IMG/VR virus record: IMGVR_UViG_3300043607_000020
Coordinates: 1-20,895 of that record
Source of the DNA: a virus
DNA: 20,895 nucleotides
Reading direction: 5' to 3' (one strand)
Part shown: in pieces, positions 4,133 through 20,661 of the stretch
Position numbering within the stretch: the first letter of the stretch is position 1
How the letters are laid out: each line of letters begins with the position of its first letter
Translations under genes and position numbers: made by a program
Notes under the pieces: generated by a model
Told to the model about the DNA's origin: nothing
The model's input: the letters and a program-made list of their open reading frames with translations, nothing else
The model's database searches: none

Positions 4133-5599
4133 TCACCTCGCTCTCTGTACTCGGTCGCGCAGCGCGGCGACGCGCGATGCACGATCCAGACCAACGGTAC
4201 GCGCCAGCCGGTCCAGCGCCGGGCGCAGATTCGGGGCGGCCGCGACGATCGGGGCGTCGAACTGCATCGGCACGCAAGACGCAACGACCGTGTCGGCCAG
4301 CACGCGTACAGAGGCAGCCACGCGGGTCGGGAACCCCTCGACGGGCACGAGCAGAGCCGCGTTCAGCTTGCCGCCCTGCCAGTCACCCGACAACGCGCAG
4401 GCCATCATGCGTTCGACCGTGTCGGGCGTGATGCCGTGCATCAGCGCGCCGGCCACCCATGTGCCCTGCGAGCTCTCGCCGACCCGGATACGCGCGGCCA
4501 CGCTGCACGAGTTGTCGTAGTGCGCCATGGCCCAGGACGCGTCAGCCCGGCGCTCGTCAAACGGCGAGGCGTGCCCGCAGTCGAACGTGACGTTGCCGGC
4601 GTTGATTTGGTAGACGTGCCCGTCGGCGCCGGCGACCAGGGCAGGCTTGTTCTGGAATTCCGAGTAATCGATGCCGCGGGGCGCCTCGACGCGACCACCC
4701 GAAGCGCGGAACGCACGGTGGTCGACACGGGAGGGCGCGAGCAGCCCGAAGACACGCCCCTCGGGCGTGATGTGCAGCGCGCCGAACGGCGGCATCTCGC
4801 GCGGCTGCTCGAACCAGGACTCGGGCCAGATGTCGGGAATGGTGATCGTGTAGGCCGCGGCGACAACGGGCTGCGCGGCGTACGGGTCGACCATGGCCGC
4901 CCCCTCGTTGGTGCTGGCCTCCATGATCTCGACCGGCTCGTCGATGATCTCGGGAGCCATGGGCGGCTGGTCGGGGGAGATGCCCAGATAGACACGGCAC
5001 TCAACAAACGCAGCCTCGGGCAGCAGCGTCAGCGATCGGACCCGGCCCGAGTGAATGATCATCAGATTTGGCTCTGGCGCCTCGATCGGCTCACCCTCGA
5101 TCGGCGCCAGATCCACGTCCTCGGGACCGACGTAGACGAACTCGATATCGGCATTCTCAATGTCGTCGGCCATGATCGAGACGCCGGTGACGTACTGGGC
5201 CGCGATCATTCGCGCAGCCTCGCGACCCATCTGGCCGACGTTGTCCAGGCAGCCAATCCAGCGGATCAGCGCGCCGTCGCGCCACATCGCGTCAACCCGA
5301 CCAGTGACGATCGAGCCGCCGTGTCCCTCGGCCTCGACCACCTGCCATTTGAAGCTGAACGGGGTCGGCGCAAACTCAAGGCCGCCGGGGGCGAACATCC
5401 GCCGAGGGCTACCTCCATCGGGTATGCCCTCGACGCAGCCGACCCCGTAGCAGGGGATCTCGGCCGCCAGCGTGTACTCGGCCATGGCCATCTCGAGCGC
5501 GTCGACCGTCACGGGCGAGTCGCCATCGTCGAGCAACGGCACCGCAAACTCGTCCTGCAGTACCTGCGGGTCCTCGTCTTCTGGCACGTCAGGCTGCAT
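4133..5599 (-). CDS. Capsid maturation (prohead) protease
   Basis: Its place directly before the capsid gene and the motif pattern identify it. Residues about 50-157 resemble the HK97-type prohead protease core: a His in EGHGGSIVTGRVD (H93), then GALIRWIGCL, and the Ser in YVTGVSIMAD (S141). The second half (about 255-430: WFEQPREMPPFGALHITPEG, then HASPFDERR, HYDN and CALSGDW) is a separate domain that typically follows in actinobacteriophage proteases; its Ser and His residues could also matter. It cuts the scaffold-like end of capsid protein and itself during maturation inside the procapsid. The start ATG has GAGAGGGGGTG upstream. Its TGA is immediately followed by the ATG of the 28-aa gene. 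At 488 residues it is long for the family. Confidence 0.83.
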   Translation of the reverse strand: MQPDVPEDEDPQVLQDEFAVPLLDDGDSPVTVDALEMAMAEYTLAAEIPCYGVGCVEGIPDGGSPRRMFAPGGLEFAPTPFSFKWQVVEAEGHGGSIVTGRVDAMWRDGALIRWIGCLDNVGQMGREAARMIAAQYVTGVSIMADDIENADIEFVYVGPEDVDLAPIEGEPIEAPEPNLMIIHSGRVRSLTLLPEAAFVECRVYLGISPDQPPMAPEIIDEPVEIMEASTNEGAAMVDPYAAQPVVAAAYTITIPDIWPESWFEQPREMPPFGALHITPEGRVFGLLAPSRVDHRAFRASGGRVEAPRGIDYSEFQNKPALVAGADGHVYQINAGNVTFDCGHASPFDERRADASWAMAHYDNSCSVAARIRVGESSQGTWVAGALMHGITPDTVERMMACALSGDWQGGKLNAALLVPVEGFPTRVAASVRVLADTVVASCVPMQFDAPIVAAAPNLRPALDRLARTVGLDRASRVAALRDRVQRAR

Positions 5600-5638: not shown

Positions 5639-6604
5639 TCAGACAGGGCACCTGGCAGAGAGGTGCGGTTCGCCGATGCTCGCCCCACAGTAGGGACAGC
5701 CACTGAATCGCACGCGCTGGGGAGTTGCCGACGCGACCGCGGGCGCTATCCCCTGCTCGCCTGCGGTCGCGTCGGCGCTCTCCACCACGGCGGGGCTGGT
5801 TCCGCCGAGCGGAAAGTCATGGATCTCGCCAGCGAACGCGACGCGCAGTACGTCGAACGTGGCCGGGCCGGTGCGCTCAGCAAACTGGCTCTTCGCCCCG
5901 AGATCGGGCGCAGCCTGCTCAGGGGCGACGTAGGCGAGGGAGACGTGCGCGTGCCATGGCCGGTACTGCTCGGGCAGGTCGACGATGTCGCTGATCTCAG
6001 AGATCGCGATTTCGAAAAACTCGGCCAGGTCAGCGCCGCCGAGCAGCATGACGATGCACGGCTCGGTCGACGGGTTGAGCACGGCCGGCCCGATGGCGTC
6101 GACCGGTACGGGATCGGTCGCCTCAGCCGCCTCGGCCGCCCAGACGAGTAGCTCCTGGCGCACGGGCTCGCCGAGCTCTTCGGCCAACCCCAGGTAGGCG
6201 ATCGTGCAGTGCAGCTCGTCGAGCGGCTCACCGAGACCGGGATCGAGGACGAGGCGCTGCGCATCGGTCGCCGACGGGATCAGCGCGACCATGGCGCCGG
6301 TCTGCGCGTCACCCAGGTTGCCGGCCGCGGTCAGGGGAGAAGTCATCCCGGCAGTATCGCGCGGCGGCGTGGCCATGGCGTACATCGGGAAGGCCAGCCC
6401 GTTGGTTGTCCACTGCAGCCCGTGGTCGCCGGGCAGCGGGTCGCGATGGTCGAGCAGGTTCTGGTAGATCTCGGTCGGGATGCCGCCGGGGTAGGCCGCG
6501 CAGTTGCTGGGCAGGCTGTAGCCACCGTCGGGCCCTTTGCCGCGGGCAAAGGTAGACGTGAAGCGTTCGCACGTCGCGCACTGCGAGGTCGCCTGGGTGG
6601 TCAT
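5639..6604 (-). CDS. 2H phosphoesterase (2'-5' RNA ligase-like) with flanking Cys motifs
   Basis: The 321-aa protein has the two hallmark motifs of the 2H superfamily: HCT at 132-134 (LDELHCTIAYLG) and HVS at 220-222 (WHAHVSLAY). These are the paired catalytic His-x-Thr/Ser that open or form 2'-5' or cyclic phosphate bonds. In front lies a conserved N-terminal piece (CATC at 9-12, C35, then YPGGIPTEIYQ and DHRDPLPGDHG) often seen as a separate small domain next to phage head genes. The C-terminus carries CPYC (303-306) and C319, a possible zinc site. Phage 2H enzymes can degrade cyclic-nucleotide or 2'-5' oligoadenylate-type signals, so an anti-defence role is possible; a head-associated role is equally possible. 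It sits between MuF-linked genes and the protease. The enzyme fold call is firm, the substrate unknown. Confidence 0.85.
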   Translation of the reverse strand: MTTQATSQCATCERFTSTFARGKGPDGGYSLPSNCAAYPGGIPTEIYQNLLDHRDPLPGDHGLQWTTNGLAFPMYAMATPPRDTAGMTSPLTAAGNLGDAQTGAMVALIPSATDAQRLVLDPGLGEPLDELHCTIAYLGLAEELGEPVRQELLVWAAEAAEATDPVPVDAIGPAVLNPSTEPCIVMLLGGADLAEFFEIAISEISDIVDLPEQYRPWHAHVSLAYVAPEQAAPDLGAKSQFAERTGPATFDVLRVAFAGEIHDFPLGGTSPAVVESADATAGEQGIAPAVASATPQRVRFSGCPYCGASIGEPHLSARCPV

Positions 6605-6849
6605 TCGTCGACCACCTGCGCGTCTTCGATCTCGCGGATCGGCTCGCCGACCGTCGCGACCGTGCGGTACGGCTCGAGTCCGCTAGCGTCGGACTCGAGC
6701 CGACCGCGTAGGCCCAGTGCGCTGGCGAACCAGTCCAGCGTCGCGTCCCGCTCAGCCTGGCCGCGGGCGCCGATCGTCGACTCGTCGCCATACAGGGACT
6801 GGCCCGCCTGCGGGATGTTCAGCCCGACGTGCGGCAAGTGACGCGTCAT
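6601..6849 (-). CDS. Small protein (82 aa) in the head operon
   Basis: The ATG at 6849 overlaps the previous stop by one base and its own TGA overlaps the 2H phosphoesterase start (ATGA). It opens MTRHLPHVGLNIPQAGQSLY, has a short helical middle (RDATLDWFASALGLRGRLES) and an acidic end (EPIREIEDAQVVDE). There is no Cys or membrane segment. The palindrome TGACGCGTCA lies over codons 1-4. Function is unknown; conserved tight spacing suggests a head role. Confidence 0.7.
   Translation of the reverse strand: MTRHLPHVGLNIPQAGQSLYGDESTIGARGQAERDATLDWFASALGLRGRLESDASGLEPYRTVATVGEPIREIEDAQVVDE
6839..6848. promoter_or_regulatory. Third copy of palindrome TGACGCGTCA, at a gene start
   Basis: It covers the start codon region of the 82-aa gene. 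Unlike the other two copies there is no TANNNT at -10 distance downstream, so it is not a promoter here. It may be a coincidence of coding sequence. Confidence 0.25.
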
Positions 6850-7088
6850 TAGGCCAGGGTAGCGGCTGCGAGCGCCTCGTCAACGGCTAGCGCGAACATA
6901 TCCAGCGCTACGCCCGAGGCCTCGAGATCGGGTACGTGCTGGTTGTAGTCGCTACCCGCAGGCCGATCGTCCGGCACGGGCACATCGAGGCCGGCCGCGA
7001 TCTCGCCCGCAACCCAGGCCGCGTGCGCGTCGGCAATGGCCAGCGAACGAGCGCGAGCCACGTCGGGAGGATCGATCCGCACGGGCAT
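6849..7088 (-). CDS. Small acidic protein (79 aa)
   Basis: It starts with ATG directly after the MuF stop and ends with a TAA sharing one base with the next ATG (TAATG), so it is inside the head operon. The sequence is helical and acidic with no Cys (ADAHAAWVAGEIAAGLDVPV, then EASGVALDMFALAVDEALAA). It may be a small head-assembly or scaffold-like factor because of its place, but I do not recognise the family. Confidence 0.7.
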   Translation of the reverse strand: MPVRIDPPDVARARSLAIADAHAAWVAGEIAAGLDVPVPDDRPAGSDYNQHVPDLEASGVALDMFALAVDEALAAATLA

Positions 7089-7089
7089 G

Positions 7090-10000
7090 TCACAAGTACA
7101 TCACGCCGTGCCAATCCATCGTCTTATCCAGCAGCAGCCATTTGCCCGGCCAGACCGCCTCTTTGCCACCTTGGCCAGGCTCACGGCCGAACTGGCTCAG
7201 GTCGAACGCGCGCGCCAGGATATCGCCGCGCCGCGCTGAGCGCACATACTCCTGCAGTTCTTCGAGCTGTTGGCGCGTGACGCCTTTCGGCGGTCGAGGC
7301 TTCGCCAGCGCCTGCGTAAGGCGAGTCTGCGCCTTCCCGAGCAGCCGTTCGGCTGCGGCCGGGCTGCTGAACTCGAATCCCTTGCTGGCCCAGGCATAGG
7401 CGCCCACATCGATATTGGCGTGAATGTCGACCTTCGTGATCCCCGAGCGCCGGTACCAGTCGTACAGGTTCTGGTTGAACTGCTCGGCGAATCCCGAACC
7501 GCGGTAGTCGCGACTGAGTACGAGCTTGGCGTGGCCCGCTGTGATCTCGCCCGTATCCGCGTTACGGGTAAAACTGCGCGTGAAGTCGCCGACTTTCTTA
7601 CCCGTAACCGGATCGGTGATCTTGCCCTCGATCAAGATGAAGTCCCGCGACAGAGCATTGGTCTTTGTAACCTCGACGCGCAGCCCGGCATACTCGCCGT
7701 CGATCGCCTTGGCCAGGCGCCTGCCGCCGGCCTCGATGATGTCGTAGCGCTCGGCCATGGTCTCCATGGCGTAGAAGTCCTCGTAGGTTGGCGCCTCGTC
7801 CATAAACTCCCGAATCGTCGGCTGGCCGACGTTGGGACGCGCCGACGGCTTCGGCACCGTGACGACCTGAGCGCGGGCCAGGGGCGCCTCAAGCTGCGTG
7901 CCGTCGGGCAGAGTCAGCGTCGAGCCGCGGCGCACGATGACCACGTCGGCGCCGGCTGGTATTTCTATGCCGCCGACGCTCTCCATGGTTGCCGGGTCAA
8001 ACTTTGCCTTGGCACCCGCCTTGCCGATCGGCTTGATCTTGGCTTTTGGCGCGTCGGCGACCGGACGACCCTGGGCCTTGGTGATCGCGGCGCGCAGCTT
8101 GGCCGTGTCGCCGGTCGCCAGCGCAGCCCGCAACGATTCGAGGGCAGCCGGGTCGGCCCCGCCGAAGATCTGGCCAGGCGCGATCAGGGCCGGATCGAGC
8201 CGCTCGCGAATGACGGCCTTTTCGGCGCCCTTGGCAATGAGTTCATCGACCTCGGCCAGAAGTCGGGCCGTCCCCTGCGCGCTCTCGATGACGCGGTTGC
8301 GCTCGCGGGCAGCATCGCGCAGCGCCTTACGCTCGGCAGCCACGATCTGCGCCGGGGTGAGCGGCTCGGCGGGCCCGGCCTCGATCAGCTTGACCAGGTC
8401 AGCCTTTTTCGTGCCGGTCGGCACGGGGATGCCGCGCTCTTTGGCCAGGGCCCGCAGCTCACCAACGGGCAGCTTCGCCAGGGGTCGCGCGGACACCTCG
8501 GCGAACCGGGAATGCGAGGCGATCGCATCCAGCCGAGCCTCGATGTAGTCGAGCCAAGCGCCCTTTTTCAGCTCGACGAATTCGGGCCGCAGTGCCTCGA
8601 GTCGCTGACGCATGGTCGCGACCTCGACGGGCGTCAAGTCGTTGCCCTCGCGCCACACGTCAACCAGGCTGTCGTCGAATCCGCGTAGATCGTTGCGATC
8701 AAACTCTGCGCCGATCTTCGGCCGTACTCCGCGCCCCTCGGGACCAACGTCGATGAATCGTTCTGCGAAATGGTCGCTGCCGCGCGTGTCCTGGCCTGGC
8801 AGCGGCACGCCCCGGTGATCCTTTGGCAGGTCCAGCCGGAACCGTCCGGCCTCGGTGATGACCTGCGCGGGGGCATTGTCAATTGCGATGATCTTGCCGT
8901 CGCGCACAATCGTATTCGCCGACCATGCCGCGCGGTCAGAGTTACCGATGAGCGCATCCATGAGCCCGATCAATCGGGCGTCGGGATCGGTGGCAATGAA
9001 CTCTTCGGTCAGACCAGCCTCGCGGCCCAGCGTGCCCTCGATGTCCTCGAGGAAGAGCGTTCGCGCATTGGCCCGGAACACGGCCGGGACCGGCGCGCCG
9101 ATCGCCTGCCCGACCCGGTTGGCCAAGTACTCCGTGTCTAGGCTGCTGCCCTCGCCGGGATGCACCGCCTTGCGATAAGCGAACGAGCCGTCTTCGAGCT
9201 GGACGCGGCGGACAACGGCCGAGACGCCCTGCTCAGGCTTGACGGCCGACGACTCGACGACACCGGTCCCAACGCGCTGCTCAAGATCCGCGTTAGCCGC
9301 CCTGGCTGCGTCGGACGCGATGGCCTCGCGTCGGGCCAGGCCCGGAGTCAGGGGCAGATCGGTCACCTGCACCGCGGCCCGCTCAACGGGCAGCACCTCG
9401 TCGCCCAGGTGCAGACGCGTGGCCGGCCGGATCAGCTGCACCGGCGTGCCGTCGGCGATGTCGGCCCCGATGGACTGGTGCAGGCGCCGGTCGAAGCGCA
9501 CCACGTCGCCGGTCGCGCCGACGAGCTCGATGCCCTCGCGCCCAGCGATCTCGCGCGCCGCAGCCCGCAGCGCGGCCGGCTCGTCGACCAGGTCGCGCAA
9601 CCGAGCCACGTCAAACTCGCTCAGCCCGCGGGCCGGCCCGGTGCCCACGGTGTGCAGCAGGGCGCGCCGGCTGGCTCCGTTGGCCACGAGCTCATCGACT
9701 CGGGCCGCGAACTCGCCGAACGGCACCGCCCGGTCGATCTCGGCCTGGCGGGCGACCGCCCTGGCCTCGGCGCCGCGGATGCGTTCGAACGACGCGGTAC
9801 TGCGTGCGACCACGCCCGGGGCGACCTGCGCCGGCAGGGCGGCGCCTGGAATTGGTGGGTCGGGTGGGCCTTCCCGTAGCGCCGAGACGAGGTCGGATTT
9901 CTTGGCCCGGGCCGCGACCGCGATGCCGCGCTCACGCGCCAGCTGGCGAAGCTGGGCGATCGTCAATCGGTTGAGGTCGAGCGACTCAGAGTTCATCAGC

Positions 10001-11805
10001 AGGTTGAGCAGCTCATCTTGTGGCAACTCGTGCCGGCCACGGGCGTAGGCCTCGCGCATCAGCCGCAAGACACCCTGGCTCAGCTCGGATGCCGCGGGAC
10101 CGGACATGATCGCATCGGCGCTGGCCTCGGCGATGAGCTCATCCATGCTGTTGAGCGCGTAGCCGCCGATCTCGCGCTCGATGTACTCGGGCAGCGGCAG
10201 GCCCGCGGCCTCGCTCAGATCGTCGAGCAGACGCGAGGTGCGCTCGCGCATCCAGTACGGATCGTGGGTGAAGTGGATCCGATGCATAGTCTCGTGCGCC
10301 GAGATACCAGCCGGGTCGGCCATGGCGCGCAGGTGGTAGCGGCGCAGGCGGTCATTCTCCAGCTTGGCCCGGTACAGCGTCGCATCGAGCGACAGATCAG
10401 CGTTGAAGCCCACGACGCCCGTACCGACGTGCGTGCTGGCATAGATCGACTCAGGGTGGTACTGCGATACGTAGATGACGTCGCCGTCGGGGAACTCGCG
10501 CAGCACGCGCAGGGCGCCCTCGGCGTGCGCCTTGGCGATGCCGAGTTCTTGGTCATCGAAGTCGGCCAGGACGTCGCGGCCCGTGATGCGCTTGGCCTCG
10601 ACCTGGAAAGCCCGCGTGACCTCCTCGGGCGTCTTGGCCCGGCGCAGTCCAATGCGCAACCCGACCGGATACGGGGGCGATGGCACCAACGCGTCGGCCG
10701 CGCCCTCGACGCCCTCGCTGCGCAGGCCGAACCGCTCATCGAACGCCTGGCCGACCTCGCGGCGCACCTGATCGGCGCGGGCCCGCACGTCGCCGATCAC
10801 CTGCTCGACACGTGCGCTCTGCTGCGCCGCCAGCGCGTCGAGCGCGCTGGGTCCCGCATCCTCGACGAGTGCGGGCGCGTCGCTGGTGCCGGGCAGCGTC
10901 TCGATCTCGGACGGCGCGAGCTCTGCGGGCGCCCGCTTGACCTGCGCCTCGGTCATGACATAGCCGACCGTGCACCGGCAGTTGTAACGCTCCTCGGGCG
11001 GCAGCCCGGCCTGAGCCGGGAACATGGCCGAAAACCCGCCGACGATGAACGGCTCGTTGAGCGGGATCGGCTTGGCCTGGTACTTGGCGCCGGCCTCGAG
11101 GTGCGTCTCGCGCGTGCGGGGCGGCCCGGTGTCGATCCACTCTTTGCGCATGCCCAGGCCTGACGCCTGAGCCATGGCGAACGAGCCGGCGTTTGACGCC
11201 TCAATGACCTGGGTGCGGGCGACGAGCGTGGCGTTAGCGACCGTCCAGGGCGCATAGGGCACCACGGCCGCCCCGCGCAGCCGCTCGGCCAGCTGGGGGA
11301 TGGACTCGCCGCGCTCGAATCCGTCGAGCAGCGCCTGGCGCGCATTGGCCCAGAGTCCGTCTCCGACCTCGTCGAACGTGTTCTTCGCCTGGGCCAGGTA
11401 GGTCTCAGCGGCCAGCGACCCGACTGGCGCGATCGTCGTGACCCCGGTCGCGTCGATTAGACCTGCGTGCAGCGCGCCGGCCGCCGACTGCCAGACCTGC
11501 GCGACGACGGGCAGCAGATTGGAGACGACCTGCTCTTGCCATAGCGGTGTGATCGCGGCCAGGTCATCGGCGCTGACGTAGGGCTGGCCGGGCGGCAGGC
11601 CGTCATTGGGCGGTACCGGGGGCGTGGCCGGGATGTCGTCCTCGCCGGCCGCGACGAGCGCGAGGACGCCCGAGGCAACCCGGATCTTGGCGATGCGGTC
11701 GGCGATCGCGTCCATGACGACCTGCATGGCCGTCTCGATGGCGCTCTCGGCTACGGCCTCCCACTCGAGCACCGTCGCGTCGGGCAGCCCCGTGATGTGC
11801 TGCAC
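7090..11805 (-). CDS. Giant MuF-type head protein with peptidase-, kinase- and GNAT-like domains
   Basis: At 1571 residues this is several times longer than an ordinary MuF minor head protein. Residues about 150-285 are the MuF domain, ending in ERYNCRCTVGYVM. About 400-580 holds a zincin-like motif HETMH (504-508) with a downstream acidic partner in MDELIAEASADAI. SAP-like modules lie at 610-646 and 1109-1144. Residues about 855-1090 look like a protein or lipid kinase fold: K879, E892, the catalytic loop LMDALIGNSDR with N955, D957 and N964, and IAIDN with D976. Residues about 1360-1490 resemble an acetyltransferase core (SRDYRGSGFA, VGAYAWASKGF). It starts with GTG at 11805, with AGCAGG upstream. 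MuF proteins sit inside the head and can be ejected with DNA, so these domains may act in the host. This matches the 'polyvalent protein' concept; activities are inferred. Confidence 0.9.
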   Translation of the reverse strand: MQHITGLPDATVLEWEAVAESAIETAMQVVMDAIADRIAKIRVASGVLALVAAGEDDIPATPPVPPNDGLPPGQPYVSADDLAAITPLWQEQVVSNLLPVVAQVWQSAAGALHAGLIDATGVTTIAPVGSLAAETYLAQAKNTFDEVGDGLWANARQALLDGFERGESIPQLAERLRGAAVVPYAPWTVANATLVARTQVIEASNAGSFAMAQASGLGMRKEWIDTGPPRTRETHLEAGAKYQAKPIPLNEPFIVGGFSAMFPAQAGLPPEERYNCRCTVGYVMTEAQVKRAPAELAPSEIETLPGTSDAPALVEDAGPSALDALAAQQSARVEQVIGDVRARADQVRREVGQAFDERFGLRSEGVEGAADALVPSPPYPVGLRIGLRRAKTPEEVTRAFQVEAKRITGRDVLADFDDQELGIAKAHAEGALRVLREFPDGDVIYVSQYHPESIYASTHVGTGVVGFNADLSLDATLYRAKLENDRLRRYHLRAMADPAGISAHETMHRIHFTHDPYWMRERTSRLLDDLSEAAGLPLPEYIEREIGGYALNSMDELIAEASADAIMSGPAASELSQGVLRLMREAYARGRHELPQDELLNLLMNSESLDLNRLTIAQLRQLARERGIAVAARAKKSDLVSALREGPPDPPIPGAALPAQVAPGVVARSTASFERIRGAEARAVARQAEIDRAVPFGEFAARVDELVANGASRRALLHTVGTGPARGLSEFDVARLRDLVDEPAALRAAAREIAGREGIELVGATGDVVRFDRRLHQSIGADIADGTPVQLIRPATRLHLGDEVLPVERAAVQVTDLPLTPGLARREAIASDAARAANADLEQRVGTGVVESSAVKPEQGVSAVVRRVQLEDGSFAYRKAVHPGEGSSLDTEYLANRVGQAIGAPVPAVFRANARTLFLEDIEGTLGREAGLTEEFIATDPDARLIGLMDALIGNSDRAAWSANTIVRDGKIIAIDNAPAQVITEAGRFRLDLPKDHRGVPLPGQDTRGSDHFAERFIDVGPEGRGVRPKIGAEFDRNDLRGFDDSLVDVWREGNDLTPVEVATMRQRLEALRPEFVELKKGAWLDYIEARLDAIASHSRFAEVSARPLAKLPVGELRALAKERGIPVPTGTKKADLVKLIEAGPAEPLTPAQIVAAERKALRDAARERNRVIESAQGTARLLAEVDELIAKGAEKAVIRERLDPALIAPGQIFGGADPAALESLRAALATGDTAKLRAAITKAQGRPVADAPKAKIKPIGKAGAKAKFDPATMESVGGIEIPAGADVVIVRRGSTLTLPDGTQLEAPLARAQVVTVPKPSARPNVGQPTIREFMDEAPTYEDFYAMETMAERYDIIEAGGRRLAKAIDGEYAGLRVEVTKTNALSRDFILIEGKITDPVTGKKVGDFTRSFTRNADTGEITAGHAKLVLSRDYRGSGFAEQFNQNLYDWYRRSGITKVDIHANIDVGAYAWASKGFEFSSPAAAERLLGKAQTRLTQALAKPRPPKGVTRQQLEELQEYVRSARRGDILARAFDLSQFGREPGQGGKEAVWPGKWLLLDKTMDWHGVMYL

Positions 11806-11809
11806 GGCG

Positions 11810-13357
11810 CTACCTGCTCAGCAGCTCATGATACTTCCCGTTGCCGTTCACGCTGGCCGCGAGCGCCGGGGGCGGGCCGGGCGCCGGGGGCGGCACGTTG
11901 CGGGTCGGGGGGATTCCGGCGGCCGGACTAACGGGCTCAGCGGTCGGTCCCGTGGGGGGCGATGGCGCTGGGTTGCTTCCCGATGCCGCGGGCGCCAGCC
12001 CGGCCGCCGAGTTCGGATCGCCTGACAGCGTGGCAGCTGCGACGGGCGTCAGCTCAGCGGTCGAGGCGGCTTTCTTCCAGACCATGATCTTGAGTTCATC
12101 GGGCGTCGGGGCGTCGGACTCGTCGAACCCGGCCTCGCGGCGCAGGGCCTCCCCCGAGATCTCCATGCGGTCGTACAGATTGAACGCCGGCTCGGTCTTG
12201 TCCGGACGGGCAGTGAGCTCGCTGACGTCGTACCAGCAGATGATCTTTCCGCCGTTGGGCCCGACCGGGGAGAGGCCGGCACTCTTGAGCATCGGCTGTA
12301 GATAGATCTTGGTCACGGCGCCGCAGATGGTCTCAGCCATCGGCGAGAACGTCAGCCTGACCTCTTCCTCGCTGACCTGCCACGCGCCCCAGTGGTTCAG
12401 CTCGCCGGTACCGCCGGTCACGCGCTCGCGAGCGATACCCAGAGTGTCGCCGAGACGGCCGAGCTCGTCCTCGCGCTCTTTCAGTAGCCACTCATCCAGC
12501 GGGTCATCGGCTTTAAGGATCTTCCATTTGTCGATCAGGTCGGCCGTGAACTTGACCGGGATCGGCAGGCCGGCGCTGGCCATCCCAGGGTTGCCGATGT
12601 TGCGCGATGCGATGTCAATCAGCATCGCCACGAACGGATCGGGCGCGTCTTTGTACTGCGGCGGGACCGAGAACGTGCCCTCTTGCGGGATGAGCATGAT
12701 TCCGTTCATGACCAGCCGCGAGATCATCATGGCGACGATGCGCTGGTCGATCAGGAAGATCCGCCGCATGATCGGCACCGCGGCCTCGGCGTTGCTGGTC
12801 GCGAGCCAGGGGTACTGCGGGTCGGGCTCGTAGATGCGCATCGGCAGGTTATCGGGCTCGAGGTCGCGCCACATCGACGGGCCGACCCGGACCCTGAACC
12901 GCGAGCCCAGGCTCTCGACGCAGTCGGTCGAGTAGACGCCCCAGTCGGCCGCGGATAGCGGGATCATCGGCGAGGCGCGCTCGGCGATGAGCCAGCCCTC
13001 ACCGGGGATCTCGAGGTGCGGAGTGATCGCGCGCAGAAACGCCGAGTGCCCGGGCGGACCGCCGCAGAAGTCCTGCATAAGCTCGGCGGCCGGCCCCTCG
13101 GTGAGCATCTCGGGCTCGTCGGCGCCCGGCGCCACCTCGGCCGCGCCCAGACGGATGCGCGACATGGCGCGCGCCGTCCAGTCCATGGCCTGGTTGAACT
13201 CGCCCAGGGTGCGACGGAAGTTCCAGGCCTCACGCTGCCAGGGCATGGCGCCGAAGAGCTGGCCGTTACGCCATTCCTGCGGCGTGTAAGTCGCCGCGGC
13301 CGCGGTCAGGGCGCGAGTCTTGCGTACGGGTACGCGAACGCTGTCCGGCACGCTCAC
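11810..13357 (-). CDS. Portal protein
   Basis: The 515-aa protein has the length and architecture of siphovirus portals: an N-terminal wing region (WNFRRTLGEFNQAMDWTARA), a beta-rich middle (PHLEIPGEGWLIAERASPMI), the conserved clip/stem helices (KFTADLIDKWKILKADDPLD, then ERVTGGTGELNHWGAWQVSE) and the crown helix near ETICGAVTKIYLQPML. The last 80 residues are Pro/Ala-rich and disordered. It forms the dodecameric ring at one capsid vertex, where terminase docks and the connector joins. The start is GTG at 13357; a second in-frame GTG at 13351, with GGGGGTG in front, is an alternative. The MuF gene follows after 4 bases. It is separated from the accessory block upstream by terminator-like hairpins, so it may have its own promoter, though none was convincing. 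Confidence 0.93.
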   Translation of the reverse strand: MSVPDSVRVPVRKTRALTAAAATYTPQEWRNGQLFGAMPWQREAWNFRRTLGEFNQAMDWTARAMSRIRLGAAEVAPGADEPEMLTEGPAAELMQDFCGGPPGHSAFLRAITPHLEIPGEGWLIAERASPMIPLSAADWGVYSTDCVESLGSRFRVRVGPSMWRDLEPDNLPMRIYEPDPQYPWLATSNAEAAVPIMRRIFLIDQRIVAMMISRLVMNGIMLIPQEGTFSVPPQYKDAPDPFVAMLIDIASRNIGNPGMASAGLPIPVKFTADLIDKWKILKADDPLDEWLLKEREDELGRLGDTLGIARERVTGGTGELNHWGAWQVSEEEVRLTFSPMAETICGAVTKIYLQPMLKSAGLSPVGPNGGKIICWYDVSELTARPDKTEPAFNLYDRMEISGEALRREAGFDESDAPTPDELKIMVWKKAASTAELTPVAAATLSGDPNSAAGLAPAASGSNPAPSPPTGPTAEPVSPAAGIPPTRNVPPPAPGPPPALAASVNGNGKYHELLSR

Positions 13358-19977: not shown

Positions 19978-20661
19978 TTACCGACCGGGAACACGCCCCG
20001 ATGCTACGGCGGCTGCTAGTGACGCGTCAACGAGCCGCACGCCCTCGAGCGCGTCGGCCACACCCCGCGTTCGTGCTGGCGGCGTAGCGTGCGTGACCCC
20101 GCGCACGAGCAGCTCGACCAGCACCTGGTCCTTGCGGCGGTTCTTCGTCGCGATCACAATGCCGCGCTCTTTGGCCAGGTCGAGCAGGGCTTTCACGCTC
20201 ATCGACTCGACCGGCGCGGATAGGACCACCTCGCGATGCCCGACACGCCGCGCGCCCAGCGGCTCCATGCCGGTCGGGCCGAAGTACCAGGCGACGTCAA
20301 ACGCCCCGTTGTGCCAGGCCGCCCAGACGCGCTCGTTGCCCCGAGCGGCCCGCAGCGTGACGACGTTGACCACGCCCCGGGTCGGTTCGGCCGCGGTCGA
20401 GCCGATCAGTCGGGCCGACCAGCCGCACGAGTGCGCCGCATCCAGCCAGCGCGCGGCGTCGCGCGACACGCCGTCAGAACCTGAATCCAGTTCACGTGCG
20501 GGCTCGAATACGACCGGTACGGCCGGCTGACCTGAACGCGATTCATGTTTGGCGGCCAGGCGCGCCTCGATCCTCTGGCGCTGGCGCACCTTCCAGGCGA
20601 CCTCACGCGCGTTGAAGTGCGCCAGCCACTCGTCGGGGGTCAGCGGCAGCGTCTGCGTCAT
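19978..20661 (-). CDS. Unrecognised 227-aa protein with SAP/Rho-N-like module
   Basis: The ATG overlaps the stop of the resolvase gene by 4 bases, so translation is probably coupled. The N-terminal 40 residues are basic and helical. Residues about 70-150 look like a compact mixed alpha/beta domain with several Trp (RVWAAWHNGAFDVAWYFG) that I do not recognise. Residues 154-188 (MSVKALLDLAKERGIVIATK onward) form a two-helix module ending in a basic segment, like SAP/Rho-N/LEM-type helix-extension-helix domains that bind nucleic acid or proteins. The same pattern occurs twice in the large MuF protein further along. The last 40 codons contain a promoter for the terminase genes. The function is unknown; a DNA-handling role is only suggested by the neighbours. 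Confidence 0.75.
   Translation of the reverse strand: MTQTLPLTPDEWLAHFNAREVAWKVRQRQRIEARLAAKHESRSGQPAVPVVFEPARELDSGSDGVSRDAARWLDAAHSCGWSARLIGSTAAEPTRGVVNVVTLRAARGNERVWAAWHNGAFDVAWYFGPTGMEPLGARRVGHREVVLSAPVESMSVKALLDLAKERGIVIATKNRRKDQVLVELLVRGVTHATPPARTRGVADALEGVRLVDASLAAAVASGRVPGR
20001..20030 (-). promoter_or_regulatory. Candidate promoter P1 upstream of the terminase string
   Basis: On the minus strand TTGACG (20030-20025) is followed after 18 bases by TAGCAT (20006-20001), which fits sigma70-type -35 and actinobacterial TANNNT -10 elements. The first 15 bases, TTGACGCGTCACTAG, recur exactly at the promoter near 17249. It lies inside the end of the upstream gene and would start a transcript near 19994, about 85 bases before the small terminase start. 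Confidence 0.6.
20020..20029. promoter_or_regulatory. Palindrome TGACGCGTCA overlapping the -35 of P1
   Basis: This is a perfect 10-bp inverted repeat covering most of the -35 and the start of the spacer, a typical position for a repressor or activator site. The same palindrome overlaps the second promoter (17239-17248) and occurs once more at 6839-6848. Operator function is inference. Confidence 0.4.

Follow-up and report, generated by a model that had tools for sequence, protein, structure and literature searches.

How does a single phage head gene come to encode several enzyme-like domains in one chain, and what might such a protein do? The gene in question belongs to a soil phage represented by a metagenome contig, IMG/VR record IMGVR_UViG_3300043607_000020, all 20,895 nt of which were analyzed (hereafter, the window). 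An earlier note, made from the letters of the sequence alone, had read it as a 1571-aa MuF protein with a zincin motif, two SAP-like modules, a kinase-like domain, and a GNAT-like C-terminus, and had suggested that the protein may deliver a set of host-directed activities at infection.

A multidomain protein in the head operon

The open reading frame occupies positions 7090..11805 of the minus strand and encodes 1571 aa without an internal stop. Its start codon is GTG, located 5 nt past the last base of the portal protein gene directly upstream (11810..13357, minus strand; phrog_776, 2.1e-94). The head operon has the order TerS-like gene, TerL, portal, MuF gene, 79-aa gene, 2H phosphoesterase, protease/structural gene, and major capsid protein. 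Judged by capsid and terminase, the nearest isolates are phages of actinobacteria; the closest by terminase is Saccharomonospora phage PIS 136 (50%), in whose MuF protein Pfam finds only MuF. Scanning cellular genome contigs with narrow patterns revealed no relative. The G+C content of the third codon position is coding-like (0.79-0.90) over every domain of the MuF gene. The 1571-aa protein as a whole has no direct PDB match; by parts, the chain runs from MuF and zincin through a SAP-helices-GrpE-like beta module, a kinase-like domain, and a second SAP-helices-GrpE-like beta module to GNAT.

The MuF head-morphogenesis domain (aa 1-300; 10906..11805, minus strand) has its Pfam core at aa 156-280 (PF04233, 2.2e-10; phrog_2468, 2.6e-27) and is 47-56% identical to that of syntenic phages. 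MuF proteins, such as gp7 of SPP1, bind the portal inside the head (PMC5576092). The zincin-type metallopeptidase domain that follows (aa 381-594; 10024..10665, minus strand) has the motif HETMH at aa 504-508 and the third ligand E556. Both His residues and the catalytic Glu of HExxH, as well as the third-ligand Glu, do not vary among 11 aligned relatives. Neither a Pfam peptidase match to the window's zincin nor a solved structure reached by sequence with the zincin profile was found, and the relatives match PF06167 (M90) weakly; we assign the domain because of the motif, its conservation, and these weak M90 matches in relatives.

Two stretches, near aa 610-644 and 1107-1143, match the SAP/Rho_N/HeH family (PF07498, 4e-13). 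Module 1 (aa 608-819; 9349..9984, minus strand) comprises the Pfam SAP match at aa 610-644, a long coiled helix with further helices, and a small beta domain, and its AlphaFold2 model has a pLDDT of about 85-95 over most of the module, in both helical and beta parts. Module 2 (aa 1107-1319; 7849..8487, minus strand) has SAP at about aa 1107-1143, a helical part, and a beta domain with KFDPATME. The two modules are related even when the SAP part is left out (Smith-Waterman z = 7.8, 500 shuffles), and both SAP regions are parts of a SAP-helical-beta module that has been duplicated, with copy 1 preceding the kinase-like domain and copy 2 preceding GNAT. Module 2 has 49-66% protein identity to relatives from several phage lineages and is the gene's most conserved DNA. 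With Foldseek, module 1 matches GrpE entries 9blt, 9a81, and 4ani (probability 0.91-0.97, E about 0.02-0.04). Like the GrpE nucleotide exchange factor, the module has a long helix, a helical bundle, and a small C-terminal beta domain; unlike GrpE, it is preceded by SAP and repeated inside a phage protein. Because the match to GrpE by sequence is not significant (3a6m, E = 2.3), we term the module GrpE-like in fold only. A literature word search, made mostly within journals open without subscription, found no paper on a GrpE-like fold with SAP in phages. SAP-like domains seem to recur outside the MuF protein, in a 227-aa gene upstream of the small terminase (19978-20661, minus strand) that has a SAP-like C-terminal stretch.

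Between the modules lies a HipA/PI3-PI4-type kinase-like domain (aa 844-1098; 8512..9276, minus strand), recognized by alignment to relatives. It keeps K879, D957, and D976, and its catalytic-loop Asn is displaced: the loop is DRAAWSAN in the window versus DRxxxN or DRRRN in relatives. Given this altered loop, kinase activity of the window copy is uncertain. The window segment alone has no Pfam match, whereas its homologues match PF00454 (PI3_PI4_kinase) with E-values of up to 5.9e-12, and TIGR03843 also matches relatives. Searched against the PDB, a profile of the family finds nothing but kinases, and these weakly (FAM20B, ABC1, PI4K). The model of the window domain has a pLDDT of 68, and its top Foldseek match is HipA, with a probability of 0.98 but an E-value of 4e-3. 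The kinase prediction is firm in the relatives, which share the core motifs of HipA-family and PI3-PI4-like kinases, and the window copy appears diverged. In contrast to HipA systems, a HipB-like gene was not identified.

The C-terminal part of the chain (aa 1320-1571; 7093..7848, minus strand) is a GNAT acetyltransferase domain with the acyl-CoA loop RGSGFA at aa 1435-1440, which fits the pattern (Q/R)xxGxG/A. Its AlphaFold2 model has a pLDDT of 92.9 and a pTM of 0.86, and each of the best 50 fold matches in the PDB is a GNAT or an enzyme that contains one; NatD, GmvT, TacT, and AtaT are among them. By profile, nearly all PDB matches are also GNATs or GNAT-containing enzymes, with weak E-values. 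Pfam Acetyltransf_1 is detected in 3 of 58 related proteins (best 9.2e-7), and 47 sequences share the conserved GNAT core motif. The models make the fold assignment firm; acetyl transfer itself is predicted. TacT, AtaT, and GmvT are toxins of type II toxin-antitoxin systems with the same GNAT fold, from which the window GNAT differs in being fused to a phage head protein and in having about 100 extra residues.

Most of the earlier note's outline therefore stands: the MuF frame is real, the zincin motif and the GNAT-like C-terminus hold, and its domain boundaries were nearly right. Both of its SAP-like stretches are found as well, although the duplicated module to which they belong was overlooked, as was the specific pairing of the next gene with the C-terminal domain. 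Its kinase-like domain is supported by the homologues and by the HipA fold match, with the window copy itself falling short in Pfam and in model confidence.

Exchange of effectors among phages

Searches with the whole chain and with single modules retrieved MuF or VG15 head proteins whose beginning (zincin, SAP modules) is shared and whose effectors vary; the effectors include ART (PF03496), a DUF3626-like domain, papain-fold Gln_amidase, kinase, a second zincin, and GNAT. Ten phages (the window and nine contigs) are syntenic, with portals 60-73%, major capsid proteins 61-65%, and TerL proteins 63-77% identical, but the content of their MuF genes differs. Taken together, the portal, terminase, and capsid genes of the ten are 57-77% identical. 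Across TerL, portal, capsid, and neighboring structural genes, the nine contigs are 53-77% identical to the window. Different C-termini are found in the same operon of L003, L007, L010, L011, L012, L014, L132, L149, and L153. The earlier note had suggested a search for the same domain order in other phages. L003 and L007 are indeed collinear over MuF-zincin-module 1-kinase-module 2 (aa 1-1338 and 1-1283, respectively), but the GNAT end occurs in none of the nine syntenic contigs. The window's zincin is 46% identical to that of L015, a phage of another lineage, versus 26-32% within its own clade, and the window's GNAT is 43% identical to those of L002 and L015. Because zincin and GNAT are closest to phages of another lineage, these domains move horizontally.

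The DNA of module 2 is similar to 17 of the 18 loci compared, across lineages, and the similarity stops where the beta domain ends. Another block of conserved DNA, about 90 bp long and also found across lineages, lies near the start of the 2H gene. These two blocks indicate that the exchanged unit is the C-terminal effector plus the small gene behind it, located between module 2 and the 2H-gene start as its 3′ boundary, and the blocks may act as recombination arms. The 2H gene (5639..6604, minus strand; PF13563, 1.3e-4; phrog_2659, 4e-24) encodes a 2H phosphoesterase or 2′-5′ RNA-ligase-like protein with a Cys-rich N-terminus. It also has a C-terminal zinc-finger-like motif and is kept behind the MuF gene throughout the clade. 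Since 2H enzymes destroy the signal nucleotides of some anti-phage systems, a role of this gene in counter-defense is possible. The gene after it (4133-5599, minus strand) matches the C-terminal half of phrog_859 and part of phrog_18402 (head maturation protease), families in which its homologue is fused to MuF or to a 2H domain; over the whole region, then, one set of parts is split in some phages and fused in others.

Multidomain head proteins are also found in other phages. The largest, L118:1432-12570, is a head-linked protein of 3712 aa with 2H, three zincins, ART, NUDIX, SAPs, GNAT, and kinase, and with a likely intein (Pfam Intein_splicing, aa 543-793). Among isolated phages, the unannotated record of Micromonospora phage pMLP1 (L161:4696-6639) encodes a fusion of a Phage_min_cap2 head protein with a PI3/PI4-type kinase; there are three weak GNAT matches, and Microbacterium phage Jera has GNAT on an annotated capsid maturation protease. 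The earlier note took the order of domains for the most unusual thing in the window. The novelty of the combination is partial, as zincin, GNAT, and kinase occur together in L118, and a MuF-type protein occurs with a kinase in pMLP1.

Small genes behind the C-terminal effector

The gene right behind the MuF gene varies among phages and tracks the C-terminal effector. In the window this gene (6849..7088, minus strand), directly after the MuF gene, encodes 79 aa with a pI of 4.1 and is a candidate immunity gene of a GNAT-specific family whose members are 67-92 aa long and have an invariant DYNxH motif. Using an iterated profile, we found this family behind 30 of 50 GNAT-ended loci and behind none of 25 others (Fisher's test, 1e-7; the loci are not all independent). 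In a scan of 2.9 million viral contigs for the partner alone, a GNAT end was directly upstream in all 17 loci detected. Kinase-ended proteins have another small family (GWSNGY) behind them in 7 of 15 cases, and this family is found behind none of the others (Fisher's test, 3e-6). The corresponding scan, for which alignment A15 was used because A14 was too diverse, gave 12 loci, each with a kinase upstream and 11 with the kinase at the very end. L003 and L132, both DUF3626-like-ended, have a third small gene in common, and the ART-ended L007 and L149 share a fourth.

The GNAT partner is a real coding gene, as its dN is below its dS (0.32 versus 1.08 between the window and L002 copies). In the window the partner is acidic and the GNAT basic (pI 8.9), a contrast that is not universal in the family. 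The partner families have no Pfam match, in the case of the GNAT partner none at E up to 1; nor did Pfam support a likeness of the kinase partner to small HipS-type proteins, which we considered. Antitoxins known for GNAT toxins are of the RHH type, and the GNAT partner, in which no antitoxin domain is recognized, is unlike them. About 40% of GNAT-ended loci, including isolated phage Jera, lack a detectable downstream partner, and no GNAT-partner match above chance was obtained in isolated phages. In the window the GNAT partner is present and the kinase partner absent, in line with the window kinase being internal. An internal kinase with no partner implies that some effectors can do without an immunity gene. 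This, the partnerless GNAT loci, the unlikeness to RHH antitoxins, and the altered catalytic loop of the window kinase count against the toxin-immunity reading that we favor below.

Two further arrangements were observed at related loci. The 102-aa gene behind the papain-fold (Gln_amidase) C-terminus of L012 (7671-7979) by eye resembles known deamidase immunity proteins and has no Pfam match. In L057, L062, and L068 (about 7100-10700), GNAT head proteins are followed, some hundreds of bases downstream, by two to four separate kinase-domain ORFs, which suggests stand-alone kinase cassettes beside the main gene.

Polyvalent proteins, MuF toxins, and the role of the protein

The locus is of a kind already known, in fact of two. 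Polyvalent proteins carry several unrelated enzyme domains per chain, among them MuF, zincin, kinase, GNAT, and rare Rho-N/SAP, and Iyer et al. (2017, PMC5512222) proposed their ejection and processing by their own zincins and described effector-loaded MuF proteins. The window's gene has a zincin, a kinase-like domain, and GNAT in one frame and is encoded by a phage in the portal-to-capsid operon, which, with the definition given in that work, supports the earlier note's filing of it as a phage polyvalent protein. Its kinase differs in being of the HipA/PI3-PI4 type rather than of the class that lost the C-terminal subdomain, and a word search of the same paper found neither a duplicated SAP-helical-GrpE-like module nor effector-specific downstream partner genes. 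MuF polymorphic toxins (Zhang et al. 2012, PMC3482391; PMC5576092; PMC11699363) likewise have an N-terminal MuF, a variable C-terminal enzyme, and, immediately downstream, a small gene that varies along with the C-terminal domain; in the case of Bxa and Apk2, immunity genes lie next to the MuF toxin (PMC11699363). In the window and its relatives, too, the C-terminal effector varies behind a conserved N-terminus with MuF. Unlike these toxins, the window's protein has several effectors per chain and not one, a zincin in mid-chain, and effectors of GNAT and HipA-like kinase type; its clade mostly lacks an integrase, and its immunity gene is a candidate. As far as the literature and libraries searched show, it is new that a HipA/PI4-type kinase and a GNAT serve as effectors of MuF proteins, each with a partner of its own; new, too, are the effector-specific partner families with no Pfam match and the duplicated SAP-GrpE-like joint. 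A word search for GNAT with minor capsid and immunity, of the same mostly open-access coverage, found no paper.

The domains, their exchange, and their pairing with small genes, together with the precedents of MuF, polyvalent, and MuF-toxin proteins, have as their most likely reading a virion-borne carrier of several effectors. We propose, as a probable though by no means secure reading, that this is a capsid-associated, polyvalent MuF protein with the organization of a polymorphic toxin and effector-specific immunity-like genes; delivery, processing, toxicity, and immunity are all inferred. Through MuF, the protein would sit at the portal within the head, where the SAP modules may anchor the chain on packaged DNA. 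The zincin would cut the chain in or after the head, and the pieces would pass into the next host with the DNA. There, GNAT may acetylate a host component, either a protein or an aminoacyl-tRNA, and so impair the cell or a competitor. In the virion-producing cell, the 79-aa product of 6849-7088 would bind and silence GNAT, so that the newest, C-terminal effector would be a toxin held in check by its own small partner. Module 2 and the 2H-gene start would form the conserved arms between which effector-plus-partner units are exchanged, much as polymorphic toxins swap their toxin-immunity ends. The earlier note's host-directed set would thus be only partly apt: several enzyme domains are present, but the C-terminal effector is swapped with a dedicated small gene and looks toxin/immunity-like rather than part of a fixed set.

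We also conjecture, with somewhat less than even confidence, a more specific history, in which the C-terminal enzyme and its immunity gene are exchanged as a unit between unrelated phages, and the SAP-GrpE-like module serves as universal joint and recombination arm of a multi-warhead head protein. Older warheads would have become internal and lost their immunity genes.

The evidence that bears on these proposals can also be read in other ways. The enzymes could be takeover enzymes comparable to T4 Alt, ejected to modify the phage's own host and favor infection, with the small gene encoding a chaperone or an adaptor for packaging, under which the C-terminal enzyme would stay inactive or foldable up to that step. 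A dedicated small gene beside its client is equally expected of a chaperone, internal effectors have no partner, and Iyer et al. modeled such proteins as early-phase effectors (PMC5512222). The clade also looks mostly lytic, with an integrase in 1 of 10 records and a resolvase in none (the records may be fragments); because the known association of MuF toxins is with temperate phages (Jamet et al. 2017, PMC5576092), this counts against the toxin-immunity reading. However, internal effectors would need chaperones too, and separate small-gene families for each type of C-terminal effector, swapped together with it, are the usual signature of toxin and immunity. We consider the takeover explanation rather unlikely, though a serious competitor.

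A mainly structural protein, in which MuF has gathered further domains for decorating the portal or binding packaged DNA and whose enzyme folds are relics, would suit the altered catalytic loop of the kinase, the DNA binding suggested by SAP domains, and the nature of MuF itself as a head protein. It is difficult to reconcile with invariant zincin ligands, with a GNAT core motif conserved across 47 sequences, with enzyme types that are replaced by other enzyme types instead of decaying, and with partner genes under purifying selection, and we regard it as improbable. That the protein is large and unusual and comes from a 20.9-kb metagenome contig might also point to an assembly or frameshift fusion of separate genes, which the earlier note had named as a finding that would undo its reading. 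This we ruled out, leaving it a negligible chance: every junction recurs in independent contigs from other samples (L002, L015, and L027, for example, span that of module 2 and GNAT), and the coding signal is continuous.

Polyvalent phage proteins and MuF toxins have until now been treated as related but distinct ideas, and this one locus shows both. The identity of the small gene follows the C-terminal enzyme and not the phage, and two unannotated small protein families are hereby named, each with a predicted partner. The pairing offers a way to test if effectors carried in virions are toxic to the cell that makes them, which would then have to survive them. If the multi-warhead conjecture is true, GNAT with the DYNxH family and HipA-like kinase with the GWSNGY family would be two new effector/immunity pairs, and virions would be vehicles of phage-phage or phage-host warfare with cassette-style arsenals.
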